From contig CM055269.1 in the NCBI GenBank assembly GCA_029237695.1, positions 27,500,956 through 27,564,955 of the forward strand: a stretch of 64,000 bases of DNA, read 5' to 3'. Source of the DNA: Conchocele bisecta. Lineage: Eukaryota; Mollusca; Bivalvia; Lucinida; Thyasiridae. Below, piece after piece: positions 6,552 through 55,753 of the stretch. Numbering within the stretch: the stretch's first letter is position 1; the number at the start of each line of letters is the position of its first letter. Both the position numbers and the translations under genes were made by a program. The notes beneath the pieces are model-generated. The model saw only the letters and a program-made list of their open reading frames with translations, had not been told where the DNA came from and did not search any database.

Positions 6552-7985
6552 ATGGATACCAAAGAATTTAGCTTTAATTATAATGCAAAGTACGCGGTCG
6601 GTGGTAAATACACGCAAAAATACGTTGTTAACCGCCTTGTACACCCAACCGTAACGGTTAGACCGGACAGTGGATTTGCCACCAACTTCCCAGACATCTT
6701 TGAACAATATAGGCTGCCCAAGATTAATACGACGGAGGCGGTAAACGGGTGGAAAGCAACACCGATGCAGTTTGGGAAGAACCAAATAAATTTCGCTGTA
6801 TGGTGCGCAACAGCCGGGTGTGGAGTTTCACATAAAGACCATCTGACATCCAAGAATGTCATGCTCCGAAGTGTCTACAACTTTCATGCGTATTATACTA
6901 TTAGGAGGATTCTGAAAGAACTAGGTATTTCACTACCTCAAGACGATGCCTGGGATCCCATTTCCAACGCATACGACCGTATGGCGTTTGAAAGACTGTG
7001 TAACGAATTTAACGTTTCAAAAGACGCGGACTGGAGACAGAAAGCATTTCCTACCAGCACCGGCCTCGGGGACGTTCTCATTCGGGGCCAGTCCGGGAAT
7101 TTGACGCAGACTGATTTCAGACACGATCACTCCGGCGACCACATTGTCAGTCGGAACGCCGGGAATTTTTACCCGGCAACGATGACCTTCGGGCCGGAAG
7201 TGTCTGGAGGTCGGCACTGTGGCGTGTTTTCTTGTAAAATGTTACCTCCGAAACGGGCTCACATCGATTACATACAGCAGGCTGCTGAGGTTCAGGACGC
7301 GTGGGGTACATTTATGTTAGATACGGGTCTAGGGTTCACGCAGGCCGGGGTTACTCGCCTCAACGACTCCATTCGCACGTACGTCTGGGCCATCCTCGGC
7401 GCACAGAAGCAAACTCGCAGTTCTATACTGGGCACGGGAACGGCGTTTGATGCACAAAAACAATTCTTGGCACTTGTAGAGGACGCCATCTCAGCTAGGG
7501 TGTACCTGGAGAAGGCGATCCAGAATTATCAAGACGTTTTGCAGAATGCCAGCACTCCAGTAGACTATGTATTTGGAATAGGTCTTTATATGGCGCCGAG
7601 CAATATGATACTACGAGACGATCCGGTTGACGGTTACAATAATCAGATCGTAATCGCCACCGCCAATCATAAAATCGGCCACAACGGTAACGTGAACACG
7701 GATATCATCATGCGCACCCCCAACATGATTGGGCGCGGAGTTGTAAGTGGAACCGATTTCATAAAACCCCCAATTCACGAATTAGCCACCCCATCAAGTT
7801 CATTTGAACCCGTTGTTTCACCCACAGCAATAGGACACCCAATTCACGAATTGAGTTCCCCCAATTCACGAATTGGAACAGGAGCGGAAACATCAATCGA
7901 GATTGGAAGCACAACAAACGAGGAGGAGAAATTAGGGCTCGTCGTTGCCCTCGTGGCGATCGGACTACTCGCGCCTTGGTTTTAG
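6552..7985 (+). CDS. Conserved Polinton structural-module protein, 477 residues
   Basis: An open 477-codon gene. Conserved landmarks are NFAVWCATAGCGVS (about residues 81-94), LNDSIRTYVWAILGAQ (about 270-285), VDYVFGIGLYMAPSN (about 338-352) and a hydrophobic C-terminus (LGLVVALVAIGLLAPWF) that may anchor in a membrane. I know this family as a companion of Polinton capsid genes but not its function. A penton or internal-membrane role is possible. Residues about 405-450 are a low-complexity linker coded largely by in-frame short palindromes (PIHEL, PNSRIG), absent or different in element 2. Its end overlaps the convergent 7965-9257 gene by about 20 bases. Confidence 0.75.
   Translation: MDTKEFSFNYNAKYAVGGKYTQKYVVNRLVHPTVTVRPDSGFATNFPDIFEQYRLPKINTTEAVNGWKATPMQFGKNQINFAVWCATAGCGVSHKDHLTSKNVMLRSVYNFHAYYTIRRILKELGISLPQDDAWDPISNAYDRMAFERLCNEFNVSKDADWRQKAFPTSTGLGDVLIRGQSGNLTQTDFRHDHSGDHIVSRNAGNFYPATMTFGPEVSGGRHCGVFSCKMLPPKRAHIDYIQQAAEVQDAWGTFMLDTGLGFTQAGVTRLNDSIRTYVWAILGAQKQTRSSILGTGTAFDAQKQFLALVEDAISARVYLEKAIQNYQDVLQNASTPVDYVFGIGLYMAPSNMILRDDPVDGYNNQIVIATANHKIGHNGNVNTDIIMRTPNMIGRGVVSGTDFIKPPIHELATPSSSFEPVVSPTAIGHPIHELSSPNSRIGTGAETSIEIGSTTNEEEKLGLVVALVAIGLLAPWF
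7770..7906. repeat. Cluster of four short palindromes inside the 477-residue gene
   Basis: CCAATTCACGAATTA at 7770-7784, CCAATTCACGAATTG at 7839-7853, CCAATTCACGAATTGG at 7861-7876 and CAATCGAGATTGG at 7894-7906. All keep the reading frame. The last is absent from the aligned place in element 2. Confidence 0.85.
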
Positions 7986-9257
7986 GAACTCTCGAGAGAG
8001 TAAAAGTAGGAGACCGGCGATTGCCACGATTAAAGCCCAAGTATTCTTGGCGAGCCATCCGGCCGTTTTTGCTAATATAGATAGCAAGTAAGAAACGATA
8101 CTTTCGATCAGTCCAGGTAGTGCGGCAGCCGCCTTTTCGGCTAATTTAGCCAGGAGACTGGCGAGGGATTTTAGTTGTTTTTTTACCCACTCCTTGGCTC
8201 CACCGGATGGCGCGGGTGGTGGTGTGGGTGGTGGCGCGTGTGGTGGCGCCGCACCACAAGTGAAAGCTAGAACTATGGTTGATATAGTCATGCCGAGAGC
8301 TGTGAGGATGCTTACTATCGTGATGCCCTGCTCTCTGAACAGAGTGCGAAGACGCTCACCGAGTGTCGTCTTCTCGTGCAGGACCCTCGAGATTGTTTCG
8401 CGGATCCGACTTATTTGTGTGCGGAGTGCCTCACGGTTAGTCGAGGCAGCCTGCAAGCTAGCTTCTCTTTCGTCCCGCAACGACCGCAGTCGTTCGTTCG
8501 GCGATCCGCTCGGTAGATTCTATATCACCACGGGCTTCCTCCAGTTTTCTTTCTTCTAGCGCGATATGTTCATCCAGCGCCGAGAGTTTGGAGAGGTTAA
8601 GGACCAGTTCGCCCGGACCGTTTGTAGAGCCTTATCGAGTCCACGGAGTTCGCGAAGAGGTAACGGTGGGTCATCGTTGAGTATTTCGTTTTCGCTGAAC
8701 GTGGTCTCCATCGTGTTAATAGCGTCGGTGGCTATTTGAGGGACCTCGCTGAGCTCTACCGTTTCTATCGCGGCGGCCGTCTTCGCCATCGTTTCGTCGG
8801 TAGACTGTAGGGCCTCTACAGCGCGGGTTGGCATACTTGTTTTACCACGCTTCCAATCTGGAAATCTGAGTTCGTTCCTTACGATTTGGCCACCGCCCGG
8901 GTTTCCGGCAATGGTGCTCAGCGCTAGGGGTTAACCGGTCCTCTTGTTGACTATTGGGAGATTTGATGCTGCTTTTAGTCGCAATCTACCGTTAAGATCA
9001 AATTTGAACTTGGAGTAGTCACGACCGACAGATGGGACCAGACCTTTTTCTGCCAAACTGTTGTAGTAGTCGTTTACAGCTCCCTCGAATAATTCCAGAC
9101 TTTGACTAGTGGTAGCGCCACCTAATTCCCCCTATTGTGATTGGATTAGAGGTGGATTCCCTATCGCATCTATGAAGGGCGTTTCGTCTTGGCCGAGGTC
9201 ATCCTCGACGTAATTGTCTCTGCCGATTTCATCCATGTCAATATCGTAATCAGCCAT
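7965..9257 (-). pseudogene. Coiled-coil/Pro-Ala/membrane protein of the Polinton, broken
   Basis: Starts at ATG 9257 with an acidic N-terminus, then a conserved block (SVGRDYSKF, LSTIAGN, RAVEALQ) and a long helical coiled coil ending RTLFREQGITI. A hydrophobic segment, a Pro/Ala-rich linker, a GGAKEW motif, a Lys/Ala-rich amphipathic region (KAAAALPGLI) and two hydrophobic C-terminal segments (AGWLAKNTWALIVAIAGLLLL) follow. This domain order is that of a conserved Polinton protein of unknown role, probably membrane-associated in assembly. Breaks: TAG 9132-9134, TAA 8931-8933, and frameshifts near 8600 and 8490. The homologue in element 2 is 51062-52377. Confidence 0.7.
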
Positions 9258-9261
9258 CTTT

Positions 9262-9284
9262 ATAATTTTCTTAAAATTAATTAT
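9262..9284 (-). promoter_or_regulatory. AT-rich motif directly upstream of a start codon
   Basis: On the minus strand AATTTTAAGAAAATTA ends 5 bases before the ATG at 9257. Near-identical motifs precede ATG 5799 (at about 5839-5860) and ATG 11598 (at about 11571-11591). Possible virus-type promoter element. Confidence 0.4.
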
Positions 9285-9328
9285 GTATTAAAGAAAAAAC
9301 CATATGAGTTTAATAGTTTCACTAAATT

Positions 9329-10599
9329 ATGTCTTCGAGTCAATACGGTCGCAAACTCAATCCATACCGCAGACTGCGTGAGCCCCTCGGGGCAAAAGTC
9401 GTGAGACAGAGTGTCGTTATTACGAACAACCCATCGACGATCGACCAGAACCAGCAGCTCTTAGTCCGCTTCCCCAACCACGGAGCTAACGACGTCATTG
9501 TGCCGGGTACTGTTCGCCTCGCTTTCACTATTTCGCTGACGTCGACGGACGCGGACCGAACCGTCGTTCAGAACCTGGGTCGCGCCATCGTCAAGAAGAC
9601 CATGATAATGATTTCTGGTAATGAGGTGATGTCGATCGATGACAGCGACGTCTACCATTGTTATCAGGACCTGTGGAAGACGGCGCAAGAGCGCGAAAAC
9701 GCGGTCTATCAGGGTATTCACACCAGCAAAAATAAGAACGTAACCACACTTAGAATCGGGGTTGGTAACAAGGCAGATAACAACGCGAGCGACAACGCGG
9801 TCACGGGCGCTTAAGGCAACCGTTTCTACATCCCGCTCGACTTTGAGTTGCTGGAGAGTCACATGCCCTACTATCAGAGTGCTTTGGCTGACCGCCTCGA
9901 ATACGAACTAACGTTCAACGACTACGGCCGAGTTCTCATAGCACCGACATGTTATCGACGTATACGATCGATAATGTTTCGCTGGAGTACGACATGGTCA
10001 CGATGCCCGAACTCGCGCGATTGATCAGAACCCAGTACGCCGGGCGCGTTGCCATACTTTACGACCGAGTTCTTCGTCATCGTAAGATGAAGAAAAACAA
10101 AGGTGACACATTGTGAAATATTATACTGATATAGGTATACTGATGTTGTTCGAGGATGCTCGGTTCGCGTTCGGGGCTAGAAAAACCTACAAATTCTATA
10201 ACCCCAAAATCACAAAGGTAGAGGTGACGATCGAGGGAATACCCAATCAACTCTACAGCGCGGGTCTTCGCGCGCAACAGCAGTGGGGCGAAGTAAGAAA
10301 GCAGTTTGCTGCCGGCTCTAAGCGCGGAGGTTGCCGCGGTTGCCAAAGACCTGCAGCTCTCGGCCGTCTCCCTCGCGGAGTTCCTGAATACCAAATACGC
10401 CTTATGGCTAGACATGCGAGCCAGCGACGACGACCAAATACACGGCAGCGGACGCCAAGTTGAGAACGCTAGTGAGGGTGTGACGATCCAGATAACCAAA
10501 GAGGCGGATGGAAATGGGCCATTGAACGTGTACTTATATATAATTACAGACGCACAACTCAACATCGAAGATGGTCGATACGTCTCAGCACTCTACTAA
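9329..10599 (+). pseudogene. MCP: Polinton major capsid protein (double jelly roll), broken
   Basis: The sequence is the characteristic Polinton major capsid protein: VPGTVRLAF, VVQNLGRAIVKKT, SIDDSDVYHCY, RFYIPLDFELLESHMPYYQS, RVLRHRK, KVEVTIEG and the ending LNIEDGRYVSALY. It would form hexon-type pseudo-hexameric capsomers. Breaks: TAA at 9812-9814, a 1-base loss near 9945, a TGA plus short deletion at about 10110-10135, and a shift near 10310. The start ATG 9329 follows a 71-base spacer after the divergent gene. The 3' end overlaps the ATPase start by 29 bases. Element 2 has a copy open over 336 codons but lacking the C-terminus (49988-50998). Confidence 0.92.
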
Positions 10600-11260
10600 A
10601 TCTAACGATTTATTAATTAAAAATTTAGTAAAAATTAAGAAAATTAGCGATCAATACCAATTCGCGATTGGAGATGCCCACTCTGCCATAATATGTGGGC
10701 AGACAGGATGTGGAAAAACGGTTTTCATCCTCAACTTGCTCGAGGGGTCCTACCGCGATGTCTTTCGTCACATTGTGATCCTGTGTCCCACTGTGCGGCA
10801 CAACGATACTTATCAGCGGCGCCCGTGGATATGGACAGACCCTGAGGTATACGTTATTTACCCCGGTTATAGGCTTCACGATTGGTTGCGTGGTTTATAC
10901 CAAAGATTCCAGGGTGAGCCCACCCTATATGTGATTGACGATTGCTCGGCCAAGGCGGCGATGACCAAAAAGAAGGACATGCTCTCCGAGCTCGCATTTT
11001 CTGGCCGCCATGCTGGGCAAAGCGTATGGATCTCCACTCAAAAGTACAACGCCGTCCTCAAGGATCTGCGCGAGCAAACGAAATGGGTCGCCCTCTTTCA
11101 CTGCAAGGACCGAGACTCATTCGATGACTGTCTTCGAGAGAATGACGTTATCCCAACGCGCGAGGAGCGCCTGGAGGTTCGACAGATGCTTTCGGAAACT
11201 AAGCACGCCAAGCTTCTGCTAAAGACTGATCAACCAACTGCTTATAAAGTTATCAATTAA
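10571..11260 (+). CDS. ATP: FtsK/HerA-type genome-packaging ATPase, intact
   Basis: 229 residues. Walker A GQTGCGKT at residues 43-50, Walker B LYVIDD at 119-124, and a downstream QSVWISTQ segment that fits the sensor position of packaging ATPases. Length and order fit the A32/FtsK-HerA ATPases of Polintons, which pump genomic DNA into capsids. The start overlaps the end of the capsid gene by 29 bases in another frame. A CCAATTCGCGATTGG palindrome (10657-10671) codes residues near Gln30-Gly34 and is absent in element 2, whose copy also lost the N-terminus. Confidence 0.93.
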   Translation: MVDTSQHSTKSNDLLIKNLVKIKKISDQYQFAIGDAHSAIICGQTGCGKTVFILNLLEGSYRDVFRHIVILCPTVRHNDTYQRRPWIWTDPEVYVIYPGYRLHDWLRGLYQRFQGEPTLYVIDDCSAKAAMTKKKDMLSELAFSGRHAGQSVWISTQKYNAVLKDLREQTKWVALFHCKDRDSFDDCLRENDVIPTREERLEVRQMLSETKHAKLLLKTDQPTAYKVIN

Positions 11261-11597
11261 TTAATTTTATAATTAATTTTATAATTTTCTTAAAATTATT
11301 TATAAAATTAATTAGCAATTACTTAACGCTCGTCAGTAACTGCTGAGTAAATGCTTAACAATGCTTTTTCAATTGCTCAACAATGCATAGCAATTGCTGA
11401 ACAATGCTGAACAAATGCTTAACAAATGTTGAACAAATGCTGACCAATGGTTAACAATGTTAACAATTTGGTGCTCCGCTGCGAGCTTTGTTGCGAGCAT
11501 AACGGTGATCATAAGTATCGGGTGGTGCGCTTGGCAATATTTTAAAGTTATGAGACTTGTTAGAATAGTTAAATTAATTTTAAGAAAATTAGCAATA
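11261..11597. repeat. Intergenic spacer with 10-11 bp tandem repeats
   Basis: AT-rich start with two motifs like AATTTTCTTAAAATTA (about 11283 and, inverted, 11571). Between about 11330 and 11465 imperfect units such as TGCTTAACAA and TGCTGAACAA repeat about a dozen times. The equivalent spacer in element 2 also holds short tandem repeats, but of a different sequence. Confidence 0.7.
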
Positions 11598-12335
11598 ATG
11601 AACTGCGACGAACTTCTCGATCAGCTAATAGAAACCTCAACTCCGGCTGCCGACACGGTATCTTTCCTGAAAGATAATGAAACATCAACTCCGACAGAGC
11701 AATCGGGGTCAACTCCAATTTCGATTGGGTTGAGTGCAACTCCAATCGTGATTGGGGCCGATACGAATGAAAATGAAAATGCTGCGCGACGAGAGCGGCT
11801 AGCTGCGCTGGTTGCTGGGGGACAATCGGAGCATTATCTCGGTAGGCGTCTCTCAGTTTGTCAGGTGGATAAGATGTCAGATGCGGAGATCGATAAAATG
11901 TACGCGCGATACGAATCTAGGTTAGGTGCGGAGATGACAAAAACTCTTGGATCGGCGGCTATTCATTTGTACGCTACCGCCGTTAGTATACTTCTCCCTA
12001 TACCAAACACCGCGGGGTTGATTCGCGATCTAGAGACTGACCCTTTTATAGGACACACTCTTAGAACAGCCTGCTGCTCAATTTATCACAAGTTTGGAAT
12101 GTACTTAGCTCCGCTGACAACATCGTTGACCACGGGTCAACACTGTCAATTTGGACATATATGCCCACGAACTATAAGCTCTAATATTAATATTATAAAT
12201 GATAACACAAGACACACCTGCGAGAGTGACGGAACCCCAGCAATCGGGGATTGTGGTTCAATCGGAGATTGCTGCAGCTCCACAGGAGCCCTCAACATCC
12301 AATCGAGATTGGACGAATCCGGTTGCACGACATAA
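11598..12335 (+). CDS. Conserved Polinton accessory protein (RRERLAALVAGG family)
   Basis: 245 residues from ATG 11598 (MNCDELLDQL). The same start context exists in element 2 at 49177. The first about 60 residues are a variable linker with repeated DTVSFLK and palindrome-coded segments. The conserved core is RRERLAALVAGGQSE, then SVCQVDKMSD, MYARYESRLG and a helical, mildly hydrophobic region (LYATAVSILLP, DPFIGHTLRTACC). I recognise it as a recurring Polinton protein without assigned function. The last about 45 residues overlap the next gene in a second frame. Upstream spacer contains the AATTTTAAGAAAATTA motif. Confidence 0.7.
   Translation: MNCDELLDQLIETSTPAADTVSFLKDNETSTPTEQSGSTPISIGLSATPIVIGADTNENENAARRERLAALVAGGQSEHYLGRRLSVCQVDKMSDAEIDKMYARYESRLGAEMTKTLGSAAIHLYATAVSILLPIPNTAGLIRDLETDPFIGHTLRTACCSIYHKFGMYLAPLTTSLTTGQHCQFGHICPRTISSNINIINDNTRHTCESDGTPAIGDCGSIGDCCSSTGALNIQSRLDESGCTT
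11715..11755. repeat. Two short palindromes in the N-terminal linker
   Basis: CCAATTTCGATTGG at 11715-11728 and CCAATCGTGATTGG at 11742-11755, in frame, coding ISIG and IVIG. Confidence 0.8.
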
Positions 12336-12780
12336 AAACCCAATAAGACAGGCATCTGGGCGGGCGGCGTCTGCCACCCGAAAAGTTCAACAAGATAAAA
12401 TACTCGCCGAGCTTCGAGAGGCCAAACAGTCGTTGCAATCGGGGACGGACACAGCAAAACATCTGAAGACAGAGCAATCGGGTTCAACATTGTTGAGTGC
12501 AACAACACCCCCAATTCACGAATTGGAAGCACACTCAACCCAATCGAAATTGGAGTTGAATCCGATTGAACCACAACACCCCCAATTCACGAATTGGAGT
12601 TGGGTTGCTTGTTGTGGTCTGGCAGTTGTTGGTGCCCTGTGTGTGTGGAAATACCCCCTATTACACCAATCCTTATCGAAAAAACAACCAGCCAGTGTTC
12701 CGAAGAAAGTTACGAAACACCAATCGCAATTAGATGTGCCCCATTTAAACATTGATCGCGATCCCTTTTATATGCAATAA
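12199..12780 (+). CDS. Single-pass membrane accessory protein of the Polinton
   Basis: 193 residues. A conserved N-terminal basic/helical block (NPVARHKNP, GRAASATRK, DKILAELREAKQSL) is followed by a linker built largely of palindrome-coded repeats (IHELE, PQFTNW), one membrane segment (WVACCGLAVVGALCVW) and a short tail ending in LNIDRDPFYMQ. Its homologue 47957-48580 keeps all these blocks but has a different linker length. It overlaps the preceding gene by 137 bases. A membrane-linked assembly role is likely by context. The exact function is unknown. Confidence 0.7.
   Translation: MITQDTPARVTEPQQSGIVVQSEIAAAPQEPSTSNRDWTNPVARHKNPIRQASGRAASATRKVQQDKILAELREAKQSLQSGTDTAKHLKTEQSGSTLLSATTPPIHELEAHSTQSKLELNPIEPQHPQFTNWSWVACCGLAVVGALCVWKYPLLHQSLSKKQPASVPKKVTKHQSQLDVPHLNIDRDPFYMQ
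12299..12597. repeat. Cluster of short palindromes inside the 193-residue gene
   Basis: CCAATCGAGATTGG at 12299-12312, CAACATTGTTG at 12485-12495, CCAATTCACGAATTGG at 12511-12526 and again at 12582-12597, and CCAATCGAAATTGG at 12540-12553. The group makes up most of the linker before the membrane segment. Confidence 0.85.
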
Positions 12781-12795
12781 TTATAATTATCAACA

Positions 12796-13029
12796 ATGGC
12801 TGAACAAGATGGTAAAATGATAGTGAATGCGCTTTATCACGCCGTGGTGATATCGGGTTCCAGTATCGGGTATGCTCGACTATGAAAGATGGCCCTAGGA
12901 GGGTCCGCTCCCAAATTGGACTTTACTGTGAGAGACGTAGGGCTCGCGACCTTAGATGTAGCGGCCGCAGTTTGGACCCGAGATTATCTAATTAAAGTTG
13001 GAATTCTACCTGTTAATATATGGAAATAA
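12796..13029 (+). pseudogene. Small two-helix membrane protein, one nonsense
   Basis: From ATG 12796 (MAEQDGKMIVNALYH) the frame meets a TGA at the position where element 2 has GGA (Gly after YARL). It then continues open to TAA 13027-13029, ending ILPVNIWK. The homologue 47712-47924 is open. Two hydrophobic stretches (LYHAVVIS...IGYARL and ATLDVAAAVWTRDYLI) suggest a small membrane protein, a type regularly present between ATPase and integrase in Polintons. The stop is immediately followed by the ATG of the next gene (TAAATG). Confidence 0.65.
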
Positions 13030-13461
13030 ATGGCTTCGATCGGAATAATGATAGGTTTTGCGCTTGTAAACGCATTGGCGTTCAGCGGTAGCAACTTTAT
13101 ATTCTCGAAAATGAGAAGCTCGAACGTGGATAAAGATCGCAAGCGTCACGATTTAGCTGTAGAACAACTCAATAGCGCAAAGGAAGCGTGGTCGAAAAAA
13201 CGAACCGCCCATCTGGACTGGGTCAACAAAGAGCTTCACCGCGAGAATCACGCCGCGCAATCTTTCCAGAATTTTGAAGAAGCCAACCGCGAGTACGCGC
13301 TGGCATATCCATAGAAAAGTCTCGCACTGCTGGATCGCGAGCCCCAACTTTCAGATTTCTATGTAACGTTAGAGCCCCAAAAAGACCGCGATATCGCGTT
13401 CATCGTCGTGGGAATGGGTGTGGTGGGTATCGTCACCTACTATATCCAATCGAGATTTTAA
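13030..13461 (+). pseudogene. Conserved Polinton membrane protein, one nonsense
   Basis: Homologue of 47264-47710. N-terminal membrane segment (MIGFALVNALAFSGSNFIFSK), a long charged helix (RKRHDLAVEQL, AWSKKRT, LDWVNKEL), the PQLSDFY motif, then a C-terminal membrane segment (AFIVVGMGVVGIVTYYI). A TAG at 13312-13314 interrupts it where element 2 has CAG (Gln). The C-terminus ends inside a half palindrome (CCAATCGAGATTTTAA), so its last residues differ from the copy in element 2. The family is a well-conserved Polinton component of unknown role. Confidence 0.7.
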
Positions 13462-13532
13462 ATTAATTAATAATTTTTACAAAATTAATAATTATTTTAA
13501 ATTCTTTTTTATAAAGATATATATATAGAACG

Positions 13533-13886
13533 ATGTCAGTTGACGAACTATATTTTTCTATGATCGATGTAGGCTACACTGCCCTTAAACACCGTATAGC
13601 TGGTGCAAAGGGTATGATTCGTCTGGCCCGAGATTCTCTCGAGACGTGGCGGGAGGATGAGAAAGCGGCCACCCTTTTCGCAAAGCGGATGTTAGATTCC
13701 TCCGAATTAGATTCCTCCGAGTTAGATTTTCCCAAGTCCCTTCAGAACTTAACCCCCAATCGCAATTGTACTTCCAACAAAGGTTTATTATTAACGACGC
13801 AGCTACCGGACTATCTGGCGAGGGCATGTTGGAGATTGTCCGATATATTAGAATACATCACATACGATGAACACGCGCAAACTTAA
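13533..13886 (+). CDS. Small conserved protein preceding the integrase
   Basis: 117 residues, with conserved DVGYTALKHR, TWREDEKAATLFAKRMLDSSE and LARACWRLSDILEY. Mostly helical, with no membrane segment. A duplicated SSELD segment and a palindrome (CAATCGCAATTG, about 13758) account for length differences from the copy in element 2 (46895-47203). Its last 20 bases overlap the integrase start in a second frame, in both elements, suggesting co-expression. I do not recognise a function. Confidence 0.65.
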   Translation: MSVDELYFSMIDVGYTALKHRIAGAKGMIRLARDSLETWREDEKAATLFAKRMLDSSELDSSELDFPKSLQNLTPNRNCTSNKGLLLTTQLPDYLARACWRLSDILEYITYDEHAQT

Positions 13887-14868
13887 TACCAAACTATCGG
13901 TTCGCCTAATGCGCAAGCTAGCGAACACATACTACAGCCCCCGCGGCTACTGGAAGGGACTCGCGGCCATCAAGAACCTAGCGGCGGCGACCAAGGTTTC
14001 AGAAAACGCTGTCAAGGAATGGCTCAAGAAGCAGGCCATCTGGCAGATCTATTTACCCGCGCCTCACAATATTCAGCGCCCGAAATTCGACGTGCCGGTG
14101 CCGAACCAAGTTCACCAAGCAGATCTCCTGTTTCTCCATCACGATCGCGTCGGTCGCAAGACGTACAAGTACGCTCTGACAATCGTTGACATAGCGAGTC
14201 ATTATAAGGGGGCTGAGCCGTTGGCCACTAAAGAGTCTAAGGAGGTGGCCGAGGCTCTTTCCCGAATATATAAGAGGAGTCCTCTCAAATGGCCGAATCT
14301 TCTCCAGGTCGATCCCGGCCGCGAGTTCATGGGCGCGGTCTCTCATCTATTGCCTAAGCACAAAGTTTCTATCAGACGCGGCCGCTTCAACATCCACCGG
14401 AACCAGGGGATCGTGGAGCGGTTCAATCGAACCCTGGCTGAGAGGCTGTTCGGACACCAATATGCCAAAGAACTTGTAAACCCTCATACGCGATCGACCG
14501 AGTGGGTGGCTAGACTGCCCGCCGTGGTCTCCGTACTGAACGGAGAGGTGACCAGATTGATAGGTAAGAAGCCTGTAGATGCCATCAAGTCTAAAAATAT
14601 GACGAGCAAGCCCTCTGCCGTCTCGCGCGGGCGACTCGTTGGTTTAGAGGAGCAACGGCTTCCATCGGATGTTGACGTCCGGTACCTCCATCAACCGGGA
14701 GAGCTCGAAGGTGGCAGCCGCCGCGCGACTGATCCCGTGTGGTCTCTGAATGTATATCATCTGGATCGCTCTATTACCAAACCCGATGAGCCCGTGCTCT
14801 ATTATTTGGCTATTTATTGGTCCATCTCGCGGGTTTGTTCGCGAAGAACTTCTTATGGTGCCTTCTGA
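13867..14868 (+). CDS. INT: Polinton integrase (retroviral-type, D,D-35-E)
   Basis: N-terminal helical DNA-binding region (about residues 1-60, with NLAAATKVSENAVKEWL like a helix-turn-helix), then a catalytic rve core with Asp86 (VHQADLLFL), Asp149 (LLQVDPGREFMG) and Glu184 (NQGIVERFNRTL), spaced D149-E184 = 35. A C-terminal beta domain (DVDVRYLHQPGELEGG...VWSLNVYHLDR) follows. The catalytic triad is intact. A roughly 4-base insertion near 14805-14815 shifts the frame, so the final about 20 residues differ from the element 2 ending (GFVREEL). The enzyme would insert linear Polinton DNA with a short target duplication. The active-site region looks functional but the tail is damaged. Confidence 0.93.
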   Translation: MNTRKLNTKLSVRLMRKLANTYYSPRGYWKGLAAIKNLAAATKVSENAVKEWLKKQAIWQIYLPAPHNIQRPKFDVPVPNQVHQADLLFLHHDRVGRKTYKYALTIVDIASHYKGAEPLATKESKEVAEALSRIYKRSPLKWPNLLQVDPGREFMGAVSHLLPKHKVSIRRGRFNIHRNQGIVERFNRTLAERLFGHQYAKELVNPHTRSTEWVARLPAVVSVLNGEVTRLIGKKPVDAIKSKNMTSKPSAVSRGRLVGLEEQRLPSDVDVRYLHQPGELEGGSRRATDPVWSLNVYHLDRSITKPDEPVLYYLAIYWSISRVCSRRTSYGAF

Positions 14869-14939
14869 CACCCAGCTGCCCCCGGATCGTCAGAGTCTTT
14901 AGTATTCTCCCCTTTTTTCAGAGTTCTTTTTTTTTTTAC

Positions 14940-45858: not shown

Positions 45859-45882
45859 TAAAACGAATCAAGATTGAAATTA

Positions 45883-47203: not shown

Positions 47204-47208
47204 CGTTC

Positions 47209-47239
<31 letters not shown>

Positions 47240-47263
47240 TAAAACAAATTTTTTTTAAATTAA

Positions 47264-47710: not shown

Positions 47711-47711
47711 T

Positions 47712-47924
47712 TTATTTCCATATATTAACGGGTAGAATTCCCGCTTTAATTAGATAATCTCGGGTCCAAACTGCAACCGCTACATCCAAGGTCACCAGCC
47801 CTACGTCTCTCACGGTAAAGTCCAATTTGGGAGAGGGCCCTCCTAAAACCATCTTTCCTAGTCGAGCATACCCGATACTGAAAACCGATATCACCACGGC
47901 GTGATAAAGCGCATTCACTATCAT
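47712..47924 (-). CDS. Small membrane protein of the Polinton
   Basis: 70 residues from the ATG at 47924 (MIVNALYHAVVIS). Two hydrophobic helices (ALYHAVVISVFSIGYA and LVTLDVAVAVWTRDYLI) are separated by a short LDFTVRD turn, and it ends ILPVNIWK. Compared with element 1, five bases near the start are missing, so the ancestral upstream ATG (MAEQDGK) is out of frame and the start shown is internal to the family. It could still make a near full-length product. Confidence 0.65.
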   Translation of the reverse strand: MIVNALYHAVVISVFSIGYARLGKMVLGGPSPKLDFTVRDVGLVTLDVAVAVWTRDYLIKAGILPVNIWK

Positions 47925-47956
47925 TTTACCATCTTGTCCATTGTTGATAATTATAA

Positions 47957-48580
47957 TTATTTCATATAATAGGGATCGCGATTAATGTTTAAATGGGGCG
48001 CAATCGGTTTCGTAACTTTCTTCGGAACCGACTCCAACACCAATCGCGAATTGGGAGGTGCGGTTGGGGGTTGTTTCGAAAGGTAGTTCCACGCACTTAG
48101 GGTGCCCACAACTGCCAGACCACCACCAGCAACCCACGGGATGATTTTCCAATCAGGTTCAACAATGTTGATGTAATAGGGGGTAGGAGCTACAGCAATC
48201 GGGGATTCCTGCGGAGATTGAACCGCAGCTGTCTTCGGGTGTTTTGCTGTTTCTGCCCCCAACCCCAATTGTGATTGGGGCTCCAGCTCAGGAGCGGCCG
48301 GAACAGATAACGACTGTTTGGCCTCTCGAAGCTCGGCGAGTATTTTATCTTGTTTAGCTTTTCGGGTGGCAGTCGCTGCCCGCCCAGCTGCCTGTCTTTT
48401 TGGGTTTTTATGTCGTGCAATTGGGTTCATCCAATCTCGATTGGGAGTTGAGGGTTCCCCCAACGTGCTCGGGTTCAACAGTGTTGAGGTTGGAGGATCA
48501 ATCGGAGTTGAAAGTGCAATCTGGTTCAACAGTGTTGAGGGCAGTTCCGTCACTCTCGCAGGTGCGTCTTGTGTCATCAT
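47957..48580 (-). CDS. Single-pass membrane accessory protein, intact
   Basis: 207 residues, homologue of 12199-12780. Conserved NPIARHKNPKRQAAGRAATA and DKILAELREAKQSL, a variable linker with several palindrome-derived segments, a membrane segment (WVAGGGLAVVGTLSAWNYL) and a tail ending LNINRDPYYMK. The N-terminal linker carries two CAACAGTGTTG palindromes and one CCAATCTCGATTGG. It overlaps the preceding gene's 3' end. Confidence 0.7.
   Translation of the reverse strand: MMTQDAPARVTELPSTLLNQIALSTPIDPPTSTLLNPSTLGEPSTPNRDWMNPIARHKNPKRQAAGRAATATRKAKQDKILAELREAKQSLSVPAAPELEPQSQLGLGAETAKHPKTAAVQSPQESPIAVAPTPYYINIVEPDWKIIPWVAGGGLAVVGTLSAWNYLSKQPPTAPPNSRLVLESVPKKVTKPIAPHLNINRDPYYMK
48040..48537. 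repeat. Cluster of short palindromes in the 207-residue gene
   Basis: CCAATCGCGAATTGG 48040-48054, CCCCAATTGTGATTGGGG about 48263-48280, CCAATCTCGATTGG 48431-48444, CAACAGTGTTG 48476-48486 and 48527-48537. Positions differ from those in the element 1 homologue. Confidence 0.85.
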
Positions 48581-49177
48581 TTATAATATTAATATTAGAG
48601 CTTATAGTTCGTGGGCATATATGTTCATATTGACTGTGTTTAGACGTGGTCAACGCGGTTGTCAGCGGAGCTAAGTACCTTCCAAACTTGTGATAAATTG
48701 AGCAGCAGGCTGTTCTAAGAGTGTGTCCTACAAAAGGATCAGTCTCTAAATCAATAATCAACCCCGCGATGTCAGATATAGGGAGAATTGCACTGACAGC
48801 GGTAGCGTACAAATGAATAGCCGCCGCCCCAAGAGTTTCGTCATCTCTGTCCCCAATTTAGATTCGTATCGTGCATACATTTTATCAACCTCGACATCTG
48901 ACATTTTATCCACCTGACAAACTGAGAGACGCCTATCGAAATACTGCTCCGATTGTCCTCCAGCAACCAGCGCAGCTAGCCGCTCGCGTCGCGTCATGTT
49001 TTCATTTTCTTTCAGGAAAGATACCGTATCAGCAGCCGGGCCATCTTTCAAACCCTTGTCGGTAGTCGTTGCAATCCCCGATTGCTCTTTCAGGAAAGAT
49101 ACCGTGTCGGTAGTCGTGCCGGTAGTCGGAGCGACTGTTTCTTCCATTAGCTGATCGAGAAGTTCTTCGCAGTTCAT
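48498..49177 (-). pseudogene. RRERLAALVAGG-family accessory protein, frameshifted
   Basis: ATG 49177 (MNCEELLDQL). The linker has a repeated DTVSFLKE. The conserved core RRERLAALVAGGQSEQY, SVCQVDKMSDVEV, MYARYESKLG and EMTK is followed by a 1-base deletion near 48834, after which the homologous segment continues in another frame (YATAVSAILP, DPFVGHTLRTACC). Element 1 has an open copy at 11598-12335. Function unknown. Confidence 0.65.
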
Positions 49178-49247
49178 TATTTTATTTTTAATAATTAGTA
49201 CTATTCTGTTTGTAATTATAAAATTAATTATGAGTAACAGCATCAAT

Positions 49248-49440
49248 CCAATCGCGATTGGAGGAATTGAAGTTGCGAATAATTCAGTAATATTTAGTAG
49301 ATTATTTATTAAATAATTCAGTAATTCAGTAATAATTCAATAATATTTAGTAGATATTAGTAGATATTAGTAGATATTAGTAGATATTAGTAAATATTAG
49401 TAGATATTAGTAAATATTCAGTACTTAATTGATAACTTCA
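49248..49440. repeat. Spacer with 10-bp tandem repeats and one palindrome
   Basis: CCAATCGCGATTGG at 49248-49261, here in non-coding DNA. From about 49305 to 49425 the unit TAGTAGATAT (with TAGTAAATAT variants) repeats about ten times, at the same place between ATPase and accessory gene as the TGCTTAACAA repeats of element 1. Confidence 0.8.
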
Positions 49441-49992
49441 TAATATGTGGGTTGATCTGTCTTTAACAACAGCTTGGCGTGCTTAGTTTCCGAAAGCATC
49501 TGTCGAACCTCCAGTCGCTCCTCGCGCGTTGGAATAACGTCGTTCTCTCGAAGACAGTCATCGAATGAGTCTCGGTCCTTGCAGTGAAAGAGGGCGACCC
49601 ATTTCGTTTGCTCGCGCAGATCCTTGAGGACGGCGTTGTACTTTTGAGTGGAGATCCATACGCTTTGCCCCGCATGGCGGCCAGAAAATGCGAGCTCGGA
49701 GAACATGTCTTTATTTTTGGTCGTCAATCACATATAGGGTGGGCTCTCCCTGGAATAGTTGGTATAAACCACGCAGCCAATCGTGAAGCCTGTCGCCGGG
49801 GTCAATGACGTAGACCTCAGGGTCGGTTCATATCCACGGGCGCCGCTGATAAGTCTCGTTGTGCCGCACAGTGGGACACAGGATCACAATGTGTCGAAAG
49901 GCATCGCGGTAGGAGCCCTCGAGCAAGTCCAGGATGAAAACCGTTTTTCCGCATCCTGTCTGCCCACATATTATGGCAGAGTGGGCATCACC
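49425..49992 (-). pseudogene. ATP: Packaging ATPase of element 2, 5' truncated and broken
   Basis: The first about 33 codons are missing, joined directly to the truncated capsid gene near 49990-50005. Walker A GQTGCGKT is intact. TGA at 49828-49830 replaces the Trp of WIWTDPE. A 23-base deletion removes the end of the Walker B region (after VID) and shifts the frame. The C-terminal 100 residues are open (SELAFSGRHAGQSVWISTQ). The protein cannot be functional. Confidence 0.88.
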
Positions 49993-50998
49993 AATTGGTA
50001 AACTGCTTTCTGACTTCGTCCCACTGCTGGTGTGCACGAAAGCCCGCGCTGTAGAGTTGATTGGGGACTCCCTCGATCGTCACCTCTACCTTCGTGATTT
50101 TGGGGTTATAGAATTTGTCGGATTTTCGAGCCCCGAGCGCGAACCGAGCATCGTCGAACAACATCAGTATACCTTTCATCGAGCGGGCGGGTACGTTGAC
50201 ATTAATATTCCACAATGTGTCGATTTTGTCTTTCGTCATCTTGCGGTGACGAAGAACTCGGTCGTAAAGTATGGCAACGCGCCCGGCATACTGGGATCTG
50301 ATTAATCGCGCGAGTTCGGGCATCGTGACCATGTCGTACTCCAACGAAACATTGTCGATCGTATACGTCGATGCTATGTCGGAGGCTATGAGAACTCGGC
50401 CGTAGTCATTGAACGTTAGTTCGTATTCGAGGCGGTCAGCCAAAGCACTCTGATAGTAGGGCATGTGACTCTCCAGCAACTCAAAGTCGAGCGGGATGTA
50501 GAAGCGGTTGCCGTAAGCGCCCGCGACCGCGTTGTCGCTCGAGTTGTTATCTGCCTTATTACCAGCCCCGATTCTAAGTTTAGTTACGTTCTTATTTTTG
50601 CTGGTGTCAATACCCTGATAGACCGCGTTTTCGCGCTCTTGCGCCGTCTTCCACTGGTCCTGATAACAATGGTAGACGTCGCTGTCATCGATCGACATCA
50701 CTTCATTACCAGAAATCTTTCTCATGGTCTTCTTGACGATGGCGCGACCCAGGTTCTGAACGACGGTTCGGTCCACGTCCGTCGACGTCAGCGAAATAGT
50801 GAAAGCGAGGCGAACAGTCCCCGGCACAATGACGTCGCTAGCTCCGAGGTTGGGGAAGCGGACTAACAGCTGCTGGTTCTGGTCGATCATCGATGGGTTG
50901 TTCGTAATAACGACACTCTGTCTCACGCCTTTCGCCCCGAGGGGCTCCCGCAGTCTGCGGTATGGATTGAGTTTGCGACCGTATTGACTCAAAGACAT
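49988..50998 (-). pseudogene. MCP: Polinton major capsid protein of element 2, C-terminus deleted
   Basis: 336 open codons from ATG 50998 with all landmark segments of the family (VPGTVRLAF, VVQNLGRAIVKKT, SIDDSDVYHCY, DFELLESHMPYYQS, RVLRHRK, VNVPARSMKGILMLFDD, KVEVTIEG). After QQWDEVRKQF the frame runs into ATPase DNA and stops at 49988. About 90 C-terminal residues present in element 1 (ending FVSALY-like) are gone. Apart from this deletion the gene is better preserved than the copy in element 1. The start is 63 bases from the divergent 51062 gene. Confidence 0.93.
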
Positions 50999-51061
50999 AT
51001 TTAAATACTCTATTAAACCCGTATGGTTTTTTCTTTAATACATAATTATATAATTATAAAG

Positions 51062-52377
51062 ATGGATGATTTTGATAGTGACGAATTCGGCAGAGACGAT
51101 GACCTCGATGATGATGACATGGATGATGATAACGAAACGCCCTTCATGGAGACTCCAGTTCCAATCCAATCGGGATTGGAGGAAATAGGTGGCGCTACCA
51201 ACACCATTAGTCTAAGTCGAGAATTACTCGAGTCAGCTGTAGACGACTACTACAACAATTTGGCAGAAAAATGTGTGGTCCCTTCTGTCGGCCGCGACTA
51301 CTCCAAGTTCGAATTGGATCGGCGTGGTAGGTTGCGACTAAAAGCATCAAATATCGAGCTCGTCAACATGAGGACCGGAAAACCCCTATCGCTGAACACC
51401 ATTGCTGGAACCCGGGGCGGTTGCGAAATCACAAAGAACGAACTAGGATACGTAGATTGGGCGCGTGGTAAAACAATTATGCCGGCCCGCGCTGTAGAGG
51501 CCCTATAGTCTACCGACGAAACGATGGCGAATACGGCCGCCGCGATAGAAACGGTCGAGCTCAGCGAGATCCCTCGTGTAGCCTCCGACGCTATTCGCAC
51601 GATGGAGATCAGCGAAAGCGAGATAGATGGAATACTCAGCACGATGGATGACCGACCGTTACCTCTTCGCGAACTCCGGGGACTCAATAAGGTTATGCAA
51701 ACAGTCCGGGGCGAATTGGTCCATAACATCGCCAAACTCTCGGCGCTGGATGAACATATCACGCTAGAAGAAAGGAAACTGGAGGAAGCCCGTGGCGATA
51801 GAGAATCTACCGAGCGAATCACCGAACGCCTGCAGTCGTTGCTGGAAGAAAGAGCAGCTCGCTCGGAGGCTGCATCGACTAACATTGAGGCTCTCCACAC
51901 CCAAATAAGTCGGATCCGCGAAACAATCTCGAGGGTCCTGCATGAGGACACGACACTCGGTGAGCGTCTTCGCACTCTGTTCAGAGAGCAGGGCGTCACG
52001 ATATGAAGCATCCTCGCTTCTATCGGCATGACCATATCGACCATAGTTCTAGTTTTCACTGGTGGTGCGGCGGCTGCACCCGCACCAGCACCCGCCCAGC
52101 ACCCGCGCCAGCACCCGCGCCATTCGGCGGAGCCAAGGAGTGGGAAGAAAAGCATCTAAAAGCCCTCGCCAGTCTCCTGGCTAAATTAACCGGAAAGGCG
52201 GCTGCCGCGCTGCCTGGGCTGATCGGGGGTGTAGTCTCCTACTTGTTATCTATATTATCAAAAACGGCCGGATGGCTCGCCAAAAACACTTGGGCTTTAA
52301 TCGTGGCGATCGCCGGTCTGCTACTATTCTCCGCCACCAATAGAGATTGGAAGTTCCCAAAACCAATGCGCGAGTAG
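51062..52377 (+). pseudogene. Coiled-coil/Pro-Ala/membrane protein of element 2, broken
   Basis: Homologue of 7965-9257 with start ATG 51062 (MDDFDSDEFG, strongly acidic). SVGRDYSKFELD, LNTIAGTRGG and RAVEAL precede a TAG at 51506-51508 (CAG in element 1). The coiled coil ends RTLFREQG before a TGA at 52004-52006, and a shift occurs in the Ala/Pro-rich repeat at about 52080-52120. The tail keeps KAAAALPGLIGG and AGWLAKNTWALIVAIAGLLL. Two palindromes (51166-51179 and 52337-52350) code SGLE and TNRDW insertions. Confidence 0.7.
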
Positions 52378-52551
52378 TAAATCACCACGAGGGCGACGAC
52401 GAGCCCTAATTTCTCCTCCTCTTGGGATGTAGTTCCCGCTCCTGTTCCAATTTCTCCAATCGCGATTGGAAGAATTGGGGGTACTGGGGTGGGTGGTTGC
52501 GGTTTTATGAAGTCGGTTCCACTTACTACCTAAACACCCAATCGAGATTGG
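52338..52551. repeat. Short palindromes at the convergent gene ends
   Basis: CCAATAGAGATTGG about 52337-52350, CCAATCGCGATTGG 52456-52469 (nested inside CCAATTT...GAATTGG arms), and CCAATCGAGATTGG 52538-52551. The last is directly followed, on the minus strand, by the premature TAG of the 477-family gene. Confidence 0.85.
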
Positions 52552-53720
52552 ATGAACCCGACCGTCTTGGGGGTGTGCTTGATGATATCCGTGTTCACGT
52601 TACCGTTATGGTCGATCTTTTGTTTGGCTGTGGCGATTACGATCTGATTATTGTAACCGTCAACCCGGTCGTCTCGTAGTATCATATTGCTCGGCGCCAT
52701 ATAAAGACCTATTCCAAATACATAGTCTACTGGGGTGCTGGCATTCTGCAAAACGTCTTGATACCGCCTGATCGCATCCGGGAGGTCTACCGGAGATGAG
52801 ATGGAGTCCTCGACATTTGCCAAGAACGCCTTCCCGTCTCCTATTATAGAACTGCGCGCTTGCGCTTGTGCGCCGAGGACGACCCAGACGTATGTGCGAA
52901 TGGAGTCGTTGAGGCGGGTAACCCCACCCTGCGTAAACCCCAGACCTTTATCTAACATAAATGTGCCCCAAGCGTCCTGGACCGCAGCAGCCTGCTGTAT
53001 GTAATCGACGTGAGCTCGTTTCGGAGGTAACCAATTGCAGGATGAGACGCCGCATTGCCGACCTCCAGACACTTCCGGCCCGAAGGTCATCGTTGCAGGG
53101 TCAAAATTCCCTGCGTTCCGACTGACAATGTGGTCGCCGGAATGATCGTGTCTAAAATCAGTCTGCGTCCAATTCCCGGACTGGCCCCGAATGAGAACGT
53201 CCCCGAGTCCAGTGCTGTTAGGAAATGTTTTCTGTCTCCAATCCGAATCTTTTGAAACGTTAAATTCGTTACACAGTCTTTCGAACGCCCTATAGTCGTA
53301 TGTGTTGGAAATGGGATTCCACCCGCCGTCTTGAGGTAGTGGAGTACCTAGTTCCTTTAAAAGTCTTATAATGGTGTAGTACACATTAAAGTTGTAGACA
53401 CTTCGGAGCATGACATTCTTGGATGTCAGATGGTCTTGATGTGAAACTCCACATCCGGTTGTTGCACACCATACGGCGAAATTTAGCTGATTCTGCCAAA
53501 ACTGCATCGGTGTTGCTTTCCACCCGTTCACTACCTCTATGGTAGTAATCTTGGGCAGCCTATATTGTTCAAACATGTTAGGGAAATTGGTGGCAAAGGC
53601 ACTGTCCGATCTAACTGTTATAGTTGGGTGTACAAGGGGGTTAACAACGGCTTTTTGCGTGTATTTACCTCCGACCGCGTACTTCGCATTATAATTAAAG
53701 CTAAATGCCTTTGTATCCAT
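52360..53720 (-). pseudogene. 477-family structural-module protein of element 2, premature stop
   Basis: Homologue of 6552-7985. ATG 53720 opens 396 codons with NFAVWCATTGCGVS, LNDSIRTYVWVVLGAQ and VDYVFGIGLYMAPSN. The frame ends at TAG 52530-52532, right after a palindrome-coded FIQSRLGV segment absent from element 1. Beyond the stop the homologous linker and hydrophobic tail remain recognisable. The palindrome insertion therefore coincides with the truncation. The 5' end overlaps the divergent 53705 gene by 16 bases. Confidence 0.8.
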
Positions 53721-54386
53721 TGATCACTAATGTTCAAAAAGAGAGTTGTGAACTTAAGAAGTCAATCGACAACTGCTGCGGAAAACGCAGGGTAGGCCTC
53801 AGATCAATCACCATCACGGTTGGGTGGGAGAATGTGGGGAAGAGTGAAGGGTTTGGGTATGTGAAGGATGGACGCTCAGTAGGTGTAAAGCTGCCTCCCA
53901 GACTGTGGAGTTTTAGACAGGTCAAAGATTTTGTCACCTCAGAGCTTGACGGTATAATCAACCAAGGCTACCGGGCTCGCAACAATGACCATCGGCCCAG
54001 ACAGCCGGGTAAGGATCTCCCCGGCGTTGGGTATTCGATTCGGTTTTAGAGAGACATAAGCCGCAAATAAAGGATTGTTTGCCCCTGGTGAGTACGTCGG
54101 TGATAACCCGGTGGACTTAGCCTTCACAAAAACTCTCAGGGTGCACCTGGATCGGGTGAACACATCGTACAACACGGTAGACGGATCTCCCAGCACATTA
54201 CTGAAAACCGTGCAAGCCAGTGATTGTTTCTTTGGGGAGACTGTGACCTTAGACTTCCCATGCCCCGAGATGAAAGTTTTAGAATCGGGACATATCCACG
54301 AATTTACGGTCTCTATTCTTGATGATCAAGCGAGAGAGTTAAAGAACTATTACCCGATTTCGGTCGTCCTAGAAATTTCCAATTGA
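53705..54386 (+). pseudogene. Candidate minor capsid protein of element 2, broken
   Basis: Homologue of 5857-6537 (ITNVQK, NCCGKRRVGLRSITITVGW, YVKDGRSVGVKL, then VDLAFTKTLRVHLDRVNTSY, ETVTLDF, ISVVLEISN). The native start region has been lost and the present ATG 53705 lies inside the divergent neighbour. A shift near 53950 and a stop at about 54050 separate the two halves. The identity as minor capsid is as uncertain as for element 1. Confidence 0.6.
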
Positions 54387-54438
54387 GTATAGGTGCCCCA
54401 ATATTATAATTAATTTAAAGATAATTTTAAAATTAATT

Positions 54439-55753
54439 ATGAGTATATACGGACCAGGTAGTTCTTCCAATTCCAATCGGGATTGGGTGACAGATTCAAA
54501 GAATTTGGAACCGGCAGAAGGGGGATTCGTCCCGACAGAGAGCGACTTTTTAACTACCGGAAAAACCAAGGCCCTGATCAATAAAACTATATCGGAGGCC
54601 ACAAACGGGATTCACAGGAGTATAGCACATCTTAGAGTAGAGGTGCTGACGGCGACTGCACACAAGTTGGGGAAGAGGCCCGGGCGAAAATTGAGGGAGT
54701 CCGAACGGGTATTGAGAAAGACCATGAGGCTTATAGGGTGTTGCTCTCAGAGGACTCTCTGAACAGAGAAACAGCACTTATTGAACTAGGAGGAAAAATA
54801 ACCAAATTTCGAAAAGAGGCCCGAACGGGTATTGAGAAAGCCCGAGAAGACCACCAGGCGGCCCTTACGGAGGCGTATGGGGTGTTGCGCTTAGAGGACT
54901 CTCTCAACATAGAAGCAGCACTTACTGAACTAGGCGAAAAAATAACAAAATTTCGAAAAGAGGACCGAACGGGTATTGAGAAAGCCCGAGAAGACCACCA
55001 GGCGGCCCTTACGGAGGCTTATAGGGTGTTGCGCTCAGAGGACTCTCCCAACAGAGAAGCAGCACTTACTGAACTAGGTGAAAAAATAACAGAATTTCGG
55101 GAAGAGGCCCGGTTGGGGGTTGAGGGAGTCCGAACGGGTATTGAGAAAGTCCGAGAAGACCACCAGTCGGCCCTTACGGAGGCATATGGGGTGTTGCGTT
55201 CAGAGGACTCTGCAGCACTTACTGAACTAGATGGAAAAATAACCGAAGTGTCAGAAAAACTGAAACGTGTTCGTAGAGCCGCGAACAAAGCACTTGAGGA
55301 TACCTCTGAAAAGATTCGTGCTGAGGCCCATACCTCTATCGGGGGGCTTGCCGGACTGTTGAAAACAATGAAAACGCAAAAACGTGTCATCACAGTTTGG
55401 GCTGAGAAGCGGGGCCCCTTGAATGAGGGTCTCTATGAATATTCATTCGGTGCCAAAGCGAGCAATAAATATGGGGGATACGCCATGCCAGCTACACTTC
55501 TCCGAATGGCTGTCTGCTCAGTTAATGCTAATGGTAAATCTGTGGACGCGGTCGTGATAAATCTTGTAGTGGATGGGGAAGAACGAGGGTTGGAGTCAAT
55601 AAACTCGCTGGAGATATTTCATCGGTGGTTTTCTTCGCCGGTGACAATCCAATTAGACTTTCAGAAGGTAGTGTTATTAACTTTGTTACGAAAATCGCTG
55701 ACCCAGCAAGTTCTTCCACCATTGTAACATTGTTAATTGAACTTGATTTGTAA
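54439..55753 (+). pseudogene. Fibre-like coiled-coil protein of element 2, broken
   Basis: ATG 54439 (MSIYGPGSSS). Homologue of 4118-5799 with fewer coiled-coil repeats (units at about 54730, 54870, 55013 and 55180, spacing 143-167 bp) and the same SIGGLAGLLKTMKTQKRV segment before the beta-rich head (MAVCSVNANGKS, INLVVDGEE). Shifts near 54750 and 55590. The repeat number differs from element 1, consistent with unequal exchange in the shaft. A CCAATCGGGATTGG palindrome (54473-54486) adds four residues relative to element 1. Confidence 0.65.
54473..54486. repeat. Palindrome insertion with an empty site in element 1
   Basis: CCAATCGGGATTGG lies between GTAGTTCTTCC and GTGACA. Element 1 has GTAGTTCTTCCGATTGGGTG at the same place (about 5755-5780, minus), 12 bases shorter. 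Confidence 0.88.

Follow-up and report, generated by a model that had tools for sequence, protein, structure and literature searches.

A 64,000-nt stretch of DNA from the bivalve Conchocele bisecta (the window; C5:27,500,956-27,564,955 of a 1.89-Gb source genome in 1,196 contigs) contains two related Polintons, P1 and P2, which lie in opposite orientation, both carry terminal inverted repeats (TIRs) and are 86-93% identical over the aligned columns of six segments. Short palindromes with cores of 13-16 bp recur along both elements. These palindromes are real, strongly non-random and, in the regions examined, associated with Polintons, and we consider it on balance probable that they form a small family of micro-repeats spreading by ectopic copying within a Polinton lineage of this genome. 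Such dispersal is well supported by sequence comparison, in which inserts and part of their flanks reappear at other palindrome sites, often in inverted form; the copying was most likely seeded by the shared arms and achieved by template switching, the enzymology of which is inferred.

Abundance and distribution of the palindromes

The window holds 29 palindrome sites, comprising 18 exact copies of CCAATN4-6ATTGG (eight in P1, ten in P2), four with CAACANTGTTG, all of which fall within TCAACANTGTTGA (the TCAAC type; one in P1, three in P2), and seven degenerate sites (7770, 7839, 7893, 9131, 12720, 13446 and 13756). The family cores read CCAATCGNGATTGG, CCAATTCACGAATTGG and TCAACANTGTTGA. An original prediction, made from the letters of the window, had proposed at least two dozen palindromes in the two elements, most of them in frame within linkers and all confined to the Polintons; palindromes are present where it placed them (its 13758 being our site 13756). 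Order-1 resampling (60 runs) yielded a mean of 0.07 exact CCAAT-type palindromes per element and a maximum of 1, so that the density is far above background. Among 5-base arm words containing G or C, CCAAT ranked highest in P1 (8), and CAATC (11) and CCAAT (10) in P2, compared with a highest count for any 5-base arm word in 30 shuffles of 4 and 6, respectively; words of A and T only reached up to 8 in P1, a tie with CCAAT, and up to 31 in P2. Enrichment of 8-mers did not reveal the family, with tandem and AT-rich words dominating.

The satellite and other window DNA outside P1 and P2 contained no exact CCAAT-type and no TCAAC-type palindromes. Genome-wide, CCAATN4ATTGG was found at 20,687 places, versus 1,166 for a reversed control pattern likewise with complementary arms. 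Around the first listed places of contig C1 (27,565 to about 2.77 Mb, leaving out four listed places near 2,244, 2,425, 2,430 and 2,557 kb), we took 20 ten-kb regions, chosen for holding palindromes, and tblastn with ten Polinton open reading frame (ORF) products identified 19 of them as Polintons; the region without Polinton matches, L054, has an off-family centre (CCAATGCTTATTGG). Five preset 6-kb control regions of C1 (30 kb) were devoid of palindromes. Together, the genome count, the 19 Polinton regions and the empty controls indicate that, within the DNA examined, the family is a feature of Polintons, as the original prediction proposed, rather than occurring at equal density in unrelated DNA. 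Adding P1 and P2 to the 19 Polinton pieces gave a set of 21 copies (one containing N), in which CCAATC with its shifts, CCAATT and TCAACA were the arm words recurring most beyond one per copy, A/T-only words being left out. Thirty-nine viral stretches contained TCCAATCGNGATTGGA once each, and 2 of these had a second place of the wider motif.

Of the 29 sites in the window, 24 fall inside ORFs assigned to Polinton genes (we use penton-like, gene A, gene B and coil as provisional names), occupying phases 0, 1 and 2 in 6, 10 and 8 cases; overlapping ORFs exist, and the gene assignment underlying these counts is our choice. The encoded peptides differ by phase: PIxIG and PIHEL in phase 0, SNRDW, PNSRIG and STLL in phase 1, and QSxLE and QFTNW in phase 2. 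The palindromes sit in linkers, again as predicted, and these linkers are hypervariable. The 104 exact palindromes of the 21 copies lie mainly in a few places: 28 fell into a single 250-bp bin of the penton tail, 33 into two gene B bins, 14 (over 19 copies) into bins 10500-10999 at the ATPase N-terminus, 6 into bin 8500 and 8 into bin 9000; none fell into the bins of the major capsid protein (MCP) core, the integrase from 14,000 or the polymerase up to 16,250, the limit of coverage by at least five copies. Near-copies of one 58-60-nt segment are used on both strands, in gene A (11700-11757) and, inverted, in gene B (12509-12568). As all frames and both strands are used, a peptide motif is unlikely to be the cause.

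Turnover and sources of the inserts

Alignment of related Polintons, which the original prediction had envisaged as a check, revealed empty and filled alleles coexisting at the same sites among the 21 copies. Between P1 and P2, alignments yielded four orthologous pairs (8 of the 29 sites), most of the remaining sites being without a counterpart in the other element. One pair, 12299..12312 (CCAATCGAGATTGG, gene B, SNRDW) and 48431..48444 (CCAATCTCGATTGG, PNRDW), is intact in both elements (here and below, P1 sites are on the plus strand and P2 sites on the minus strand unless noted). Two pairs have decayed in P1, namely 13756..13769 (CCAATCGCAATTGT, degenerate) with its orthologue 47012..47025 (CCAATCGCGATTGG), and 9131..9144 (no strand assigned) with 51166..51179 (CCAATCGGGATTGG, plus strand). 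In the fourth, the class II palindrome at 7861..7876 (CCAATTCACGAATTGG, PNSRIG) corresponds to a P2 site in whose loop a second palindrome is nested (52456..52469, CCAATCGCGATTGG). At the coil site (54473..54486, CCAATCGGGATTGG, plus strand), 13 of 16 copies are empty and read CACCCAATC-GGAAGAAC or a near form, two (P2 and L059) are filled by CCGATTGGAATT, a 12-nt in-frame palindrome, and one (L050) holds another in-frame insert of 9 nt. The penton-tail insertion at 52538..52551 (CCAATCGAGATTGG) occurs in 2 of 19 copies, P2 and, altered, L050. With these additional copies, the polarity of the change is clear at both the coil and the penton-tail site. The penton-tail dyad CACCAATC^GAAATTGG carries five different inserts, one of them a TCAACAATGTTGA module.

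A census of clean pairwise indels of at least 6 nt over the 21 copies comprised 454 distinct inserts, 29 of which create a family palindrome. The insert lengths vary (12, 15, 18, 21, 30 nt and others) and are a multiple of three in 25 of the 29 palindrome-making inserts, compared with 199 of 328 other non-simple inserts (p = 0.008). Inspection of the 29 listed inserts by eye showed no constant target duplication, a systematic test not having been made. The empty alleles frequently contain one of the two arms to begin with: CCCAATC at the coil site, GATTGGG in the penton tail and GTTGA in gene B. Copies with 0, 1 and 2 mismatches numbered 46, 39 and 55, versus 0, 0 and 9 in the background; just 2 of the 55 two-mismatch copies were symmetric (compensatory), and the 46 perfect copies were centred on GC (25), GA (11), CC (4), TC (4) and GT (2). 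Judged from these fossils, which decay under any model, a mismatch spectrum with so few symmetric changes would speak for birth and decay over maintained dyads. A template-switch origin for all indels in general was rejected, with 1 of the 19 clean P1/P2 indels making a family palindrome.

We then listed exact, non-orthologous matches of at least 17 nt within the window, known tandem arrays and matches of more than 85% A/T having been excluded beforehand. Palindromes were borne by the matches 11709-11736/12532-12559 (28 nt, inverted), 12504-12527/12575-12598 (24 nt), 48423-48445/52537-52559 (23 nt, inverted), 7858-7878/12508-12528 (21 nt), 47011-47029/49244-49262 (19 nt, inverted), 48472-48489/48523-48540 (18 nt) and 49247-49263/52454-52470 (17 nt, inverted). 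The others were the TIRs, a subterminal pair at 19320/56517 (21 nt), a tandem pair at 56454 (17 nt), a local inverted repeat at 3401-3447 (17 nt) and a local 20-nt duplication in gene A (49008/49086). The P2 insertion at 52538 matches 48423-48453, the surroundings of the palindrome at 48431, in 29 of 31 positions; as the identical 23 nt hold the flank variant of P2 and not that of P1, this copy was probably made in the P2 lineage. The coil-site insert at 54473 finds its matching source at 51166, and 47011-47046 matches the penton tail at 52431-52470 (inverted, with one 4-nt gap and one mismatch). Non-orthologous flank-to-flank scores reached 34, 27, 25 and 23, versus a maximum of 21 in 40 flank shuffles.

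Sources were further sought for ten P1/P2 insertions, that is nine of the 13 clean ones of at least 12 nt (three coil-array insertions and one tandem being left out) and one at 52555 failing the flank rule used to define the clean P1/P2 indels. Both palindromic insertions had source scores, 18 and 25, that exceeded the shuffle maximum of 12 (12 shuffles) by 6 and 13 points. Words shared at the junctions included TTCC and GATTGG at 54473, GATTGGG at 52538, and GACAGA. Extended to the 21 copies, the search returned a non-orthologous match score of at least 16 for 16 of 23 palindromic inserts, compared with 4 of 45 sampled other inserts (p = 5e-7; coil-array, AT-rich and tandem inserts excluded, controls being the first 45 of a shuffled list). 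When the cores were kept and the remainder was shuffled, a score of 18 was attained in 3 of 138 cases versus 13 of 23 observed, two of the 23 rows having no core to keep.

Proposed mechanism and alternatives

Polintons presumably replicate through protein-primed strand displacement, which would expose the single strands needed for ectopic copying. A strand that has stalled or been displaced with its end in one arm could then pair with either strand of another copy, duplicate that palindrome plus some flank and return, by template switching or short-tract conversion between elements. Annealing to other copies would be possible because the members share self-complementary arms, and inverted copies would be explained because such arms let either strand serve. 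The insert would thereby supply the missing arm together with flank from beside another palindrome, and the short junction words fit annealing via common arms. Frame-keeping insertions in disordered linkers would survive, those in folded domains would be lost, and copies would later decay by mutation. Conversion by host repair between integrated copies is equally compatible. Tentatively, and with somewhat less confidence than in the spread itself, the palindromes might be regarded as self-propagating micro-replicators with a 13-16-bp core, whose arms turn Polinton replication errors into copies that nest in one another and so add new linker sequence to viral structural proteins, whatever the strand or frame and many thousandfold in a single genome; few spreading DNA repeats may be smaller.

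Several points weigh against spread by ectopic copying. Three non-palindromic P1/P2 insertions also beat the shuffle maximum, by 1-2 points, and five did not. When the source test was carried out within each copy's own piece, palindromic and other inserts did not differ (6/25 vs 15/60), with 12 of the 14 non-palindromic cases shown lying in the coil tandem array or in AT-rich DNA. A preference for dyad centres was not significant (7/29 vs 39/328, p = 0.08). Moreover, alleles of one site recur in the census, and since its rows are thus not independent the p-values are guides only; the copies themselves were selected for holding palindromes. Because the copies are fossils, host gene conversion after insertion is indistinguishable in them from copying during replication of the element.

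As interpretations, the original prediction had named micro-mobile sequences, protein-binding sites and by-products of replication. Mobility is supported by the presence/absence alleles and by ectopic copies with their flanks, but movement of the transposase type fits less well: by-products of replication or recombination fit better because insert length is variable, junction homologies are short, both orientations occur and no constant target duplication was apparent by eye. A dedicated micro-transposon moved by a recombinase, akin to a miniature inverted-repeat transposable element (MITE), would produce both alleles and dispersal, yet the unit inserted is not constant in length as in a MITE and the empty allele often holds one arm beforehand, and we disfavour this reading as unlikely. 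Purely local hairpin synthesis, in which inverted duplication of a neighbouring half site makes each palindrome, appears similarly doubtful. It agrees with the empty alleles at 54473 and in gene B, each of which has one arm beforehand, but the same words recur with shared flanks at unrelated places, longer flank identity already links non-orthologous sites, and the other 18 of the 19 clean P1/P2 indels make no family palindrome.

Protein binding as the basis of the palindromes, although improbable in our estimate, is the main rival. Here, selection would keep recognition sites, many of which are needed per element by a Polinton or host protein in packaging, silencing or transcription (for example, a CCAAT-box factor), in analogy to dispersed DNA uptake sequences and phage stoperators. 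One dominant consensus with a limited set of centres suits this explanation, as does the fact that several genes and each of the 19 Polinton pieces carry palindromes, although the pieces had been selected on that basis. It is at odds with the spacing of the CCAAT arms, which varies from 4 to 6, with TCAACA being a different word and with the turnover of sites, only four pairs of which are orthologous, two being decayed in P1 and one bearing a nested P2 insertion. The rarity of symmetric changes also argues against it, with the caveat on fossils given above, and flanks were copied too, which binding alone does not need. Far less probable still is a protein-level or compositional effect, in which linker peptides or codon bias generate the words. 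The palindromes do lie in variable linkers, which in gene A relatives are rich in S, T, P and Q; however, the words occur in every frame, genes A and B read near-copies of one DNA segment from opposite strands, and resampled sequence does not yield the palindromes. Moreover, a PIHEL-type pattern was found in none of the 120 penton relatives listed (best 120 of 630), and no TPIxIG pair occurred in 15 aligned gene A relatives.

If spread by ectopic copying is correct, very short palindromes multiply through homology-seeded copying inside coding genes of an animal virus-like element, and a process at the DNA level shapes disordered regions of viral proteins regardless of frame. The very many copies in one genome would allow sources, junctions and rates to be worked out, and the origin of mobile palindromic repeats would become testable. 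Were the sites recognition signals instead, they would reveal a Polinton self-recognition code, so far unknown.

Among the listed results of a literature search with few subscription papers within reach, there was no report of such repeats in Polintons, which does not prove novelty. The likeness to palindromic insertion elements of bacteria noted in the original prediction extends to placement: Rickettsia palindromic elements insert into unrelated genes without disrupting the reading frame (PMC10969869), as do the Polinton palindromes. It does not extend to size, a constant unit or the peptide, the Rickettsia elements being about 150 bp long with a conserved peptide, whereas the Polinton cores measure 13-16 bp, encode no constant peptide in their three frames and are carried by an animal virus-like transposon. 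GC clusters of yeast mitochondria (GC42) are palindromic micro-repeats that proliferate, merge and shuffle, with co-conversion of flanks discussed, and resemble the Polinton palindromes in presence/absence alleles and dispersed copies; unlike these, GC42 has 42 nt, an organelle genome as its site and a putative target-site duplication (PMC4478555). The pithovirus M1 and M2 inverted repeats are likewise palindromic, invade a DNA virus and possibly multiplied by recombination, but have TIRs of 54 and 47 bp, are intergenic and show a putative TA duplication (PMC10664404). PARCELs also show dyad symmetry in coding sequence and have been suggested to undergo shuffling within genomes, but are tandem 25-residue protein repeats of unicellular microbes (PMC2996958). 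Finally, Fusarium mitochondria have palindromic (A)n/(T)n repeats that are optional and linked to nearby indels and single-nucleotide polymorphisms, but their arms are mononucleotide runs in a mitochondrial genome (PMC7218506).

Individual sites and carrier elements

The remaining P1 sites begin in the tail of the penton-like gene with two degenerate class II palindromes encoding PIHEL (7770..7785, CCAATTCACGAATTAG; 7839..7854, CCAATTCACGAATTGA) and include a degenerate class I site (7893..7906, TCAATCGAGATTGG). One site lies in the ATPase N-terminus (10657..10671, CCAATTCGCGATTGG), and two in gene A (11715..11728, CCAATTTCGATTGG; 11742..11755, CCAATCGTGATTGG) fall within the inverted near-copy at 11700-11757. 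Gene B carries 12485..12495 (CAACATTGTTG, STLL), 12511..12526 (CCAATTCACGAATTGG, PIHEL), 12540..12553 (CCAATCGAAATTGG), 12582..12597 (CCAATTCACGAATTGG, PQFTNW) and the degenerate 12720..12733 (CCAATCGCAATTAG), followed by a degenerate site at 13446..13459 (CCAATCGAGATTTT). On the P2 side, gene B holds 48040..48054 (CCAATCGCGAATTGG), 48160..48170 (CAACAATGTTG) and 48265..48278 (CCAATTGTGATTGG); CAACAGTGTTG occurs at both 48476..48486 and 48527..48537, CCAATCGCGATTGG directly upstream of gene A (49248..49261) and CCAATAGAGATTGG behind the penton-like ORF (52337..52350). Near P1 position 12527, gene B of L047 contains, beside a CCAA(T) arm, a piece that by eye resembles the beginning of the coil gene (AATTCTTTGAATTTGTCACCC); the left flank in L060 is similar.

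P1 spans 2203..19488 (plus strand), with TIR arms at 2203-2287 and 19404-19488 and matches extending inward to 2326 and 19362; P2 spans 41075..57013 (minus strand), with arms at 41075-41247 and 56841-57013 and a repeat that continues for about 40 nt outward. The elements are separated and flanked by a satellite block and other DNA. No target-site duplication of the Polintons was found with the approximate element ends used. In Pfam searches, P1 matched an A32-type packaging ATPase (PF04665, 40.1 bits; cut-off 22.8) and, below the cut-off of 32.6, rve, a retroviral-type integrase domain (25.7 bits, E = 1.4e-5); Capsid_N matched the MCP ORF of P1 at 19.1 bits, under the cut-off of 24, and did not match that of P2. 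Four scanned ORFs of the polymerase region gave no polymerase family, the sole match being zf-C2H2 below threshold; a DTDS motif can be made out, possibly marking a protein-primed DNA polymerase B. The penton-like protein had 630 relatives at E up to 0.001, of which one among the best 120 is named from the bivalve Mactra antiquata, and no scoring homologue was found for the gene B protein. Searches of the viral_contigs and genome_contigs DNA collections by tblastn returned no relative; protein relatives served solely as peptide comparisons. Three of 47 gene A relatives (P0130, P0132 and P0133) are named as proteins of metagenome-assembled genomes of clam symbionts, whose hosts are presumably lucinid clams, and are likely host DNA left in bacterial assemblies.

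Beyond the family, a second, AT-rich palindrome type (TAATTTTCTTAAAATTA-like) occurs at 5840-5854, 9263-9279, 11281-11299, 11575-11591, 13471-13487 and 54422-54435, mostly in spacers between Polinton genes; inserts of this type also had ectopic matches, and it is possibly a promoter signal. About 350 bp between MCP and ATPase are missing from P2 (10307-10667 / 49995-50000), a gap that ends at the ATPase palindrome of P1, with thin evidence for involvement of the palindrome. The coiled-coil gene (4613-5560 and 54726-55260) consists of tandem repeats of about 144 bp, more numerous in P1 than in P2, and 33-bp tandem repeats with CCAATTGTC and TCAACACTG words occupy corresponding places of both elements (3999-4069 and 55773-55845). 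Near the right end of P1, palindromes of the TTATACTGAGTATAA type lie in a 163-bp tandem array (18883-19148).

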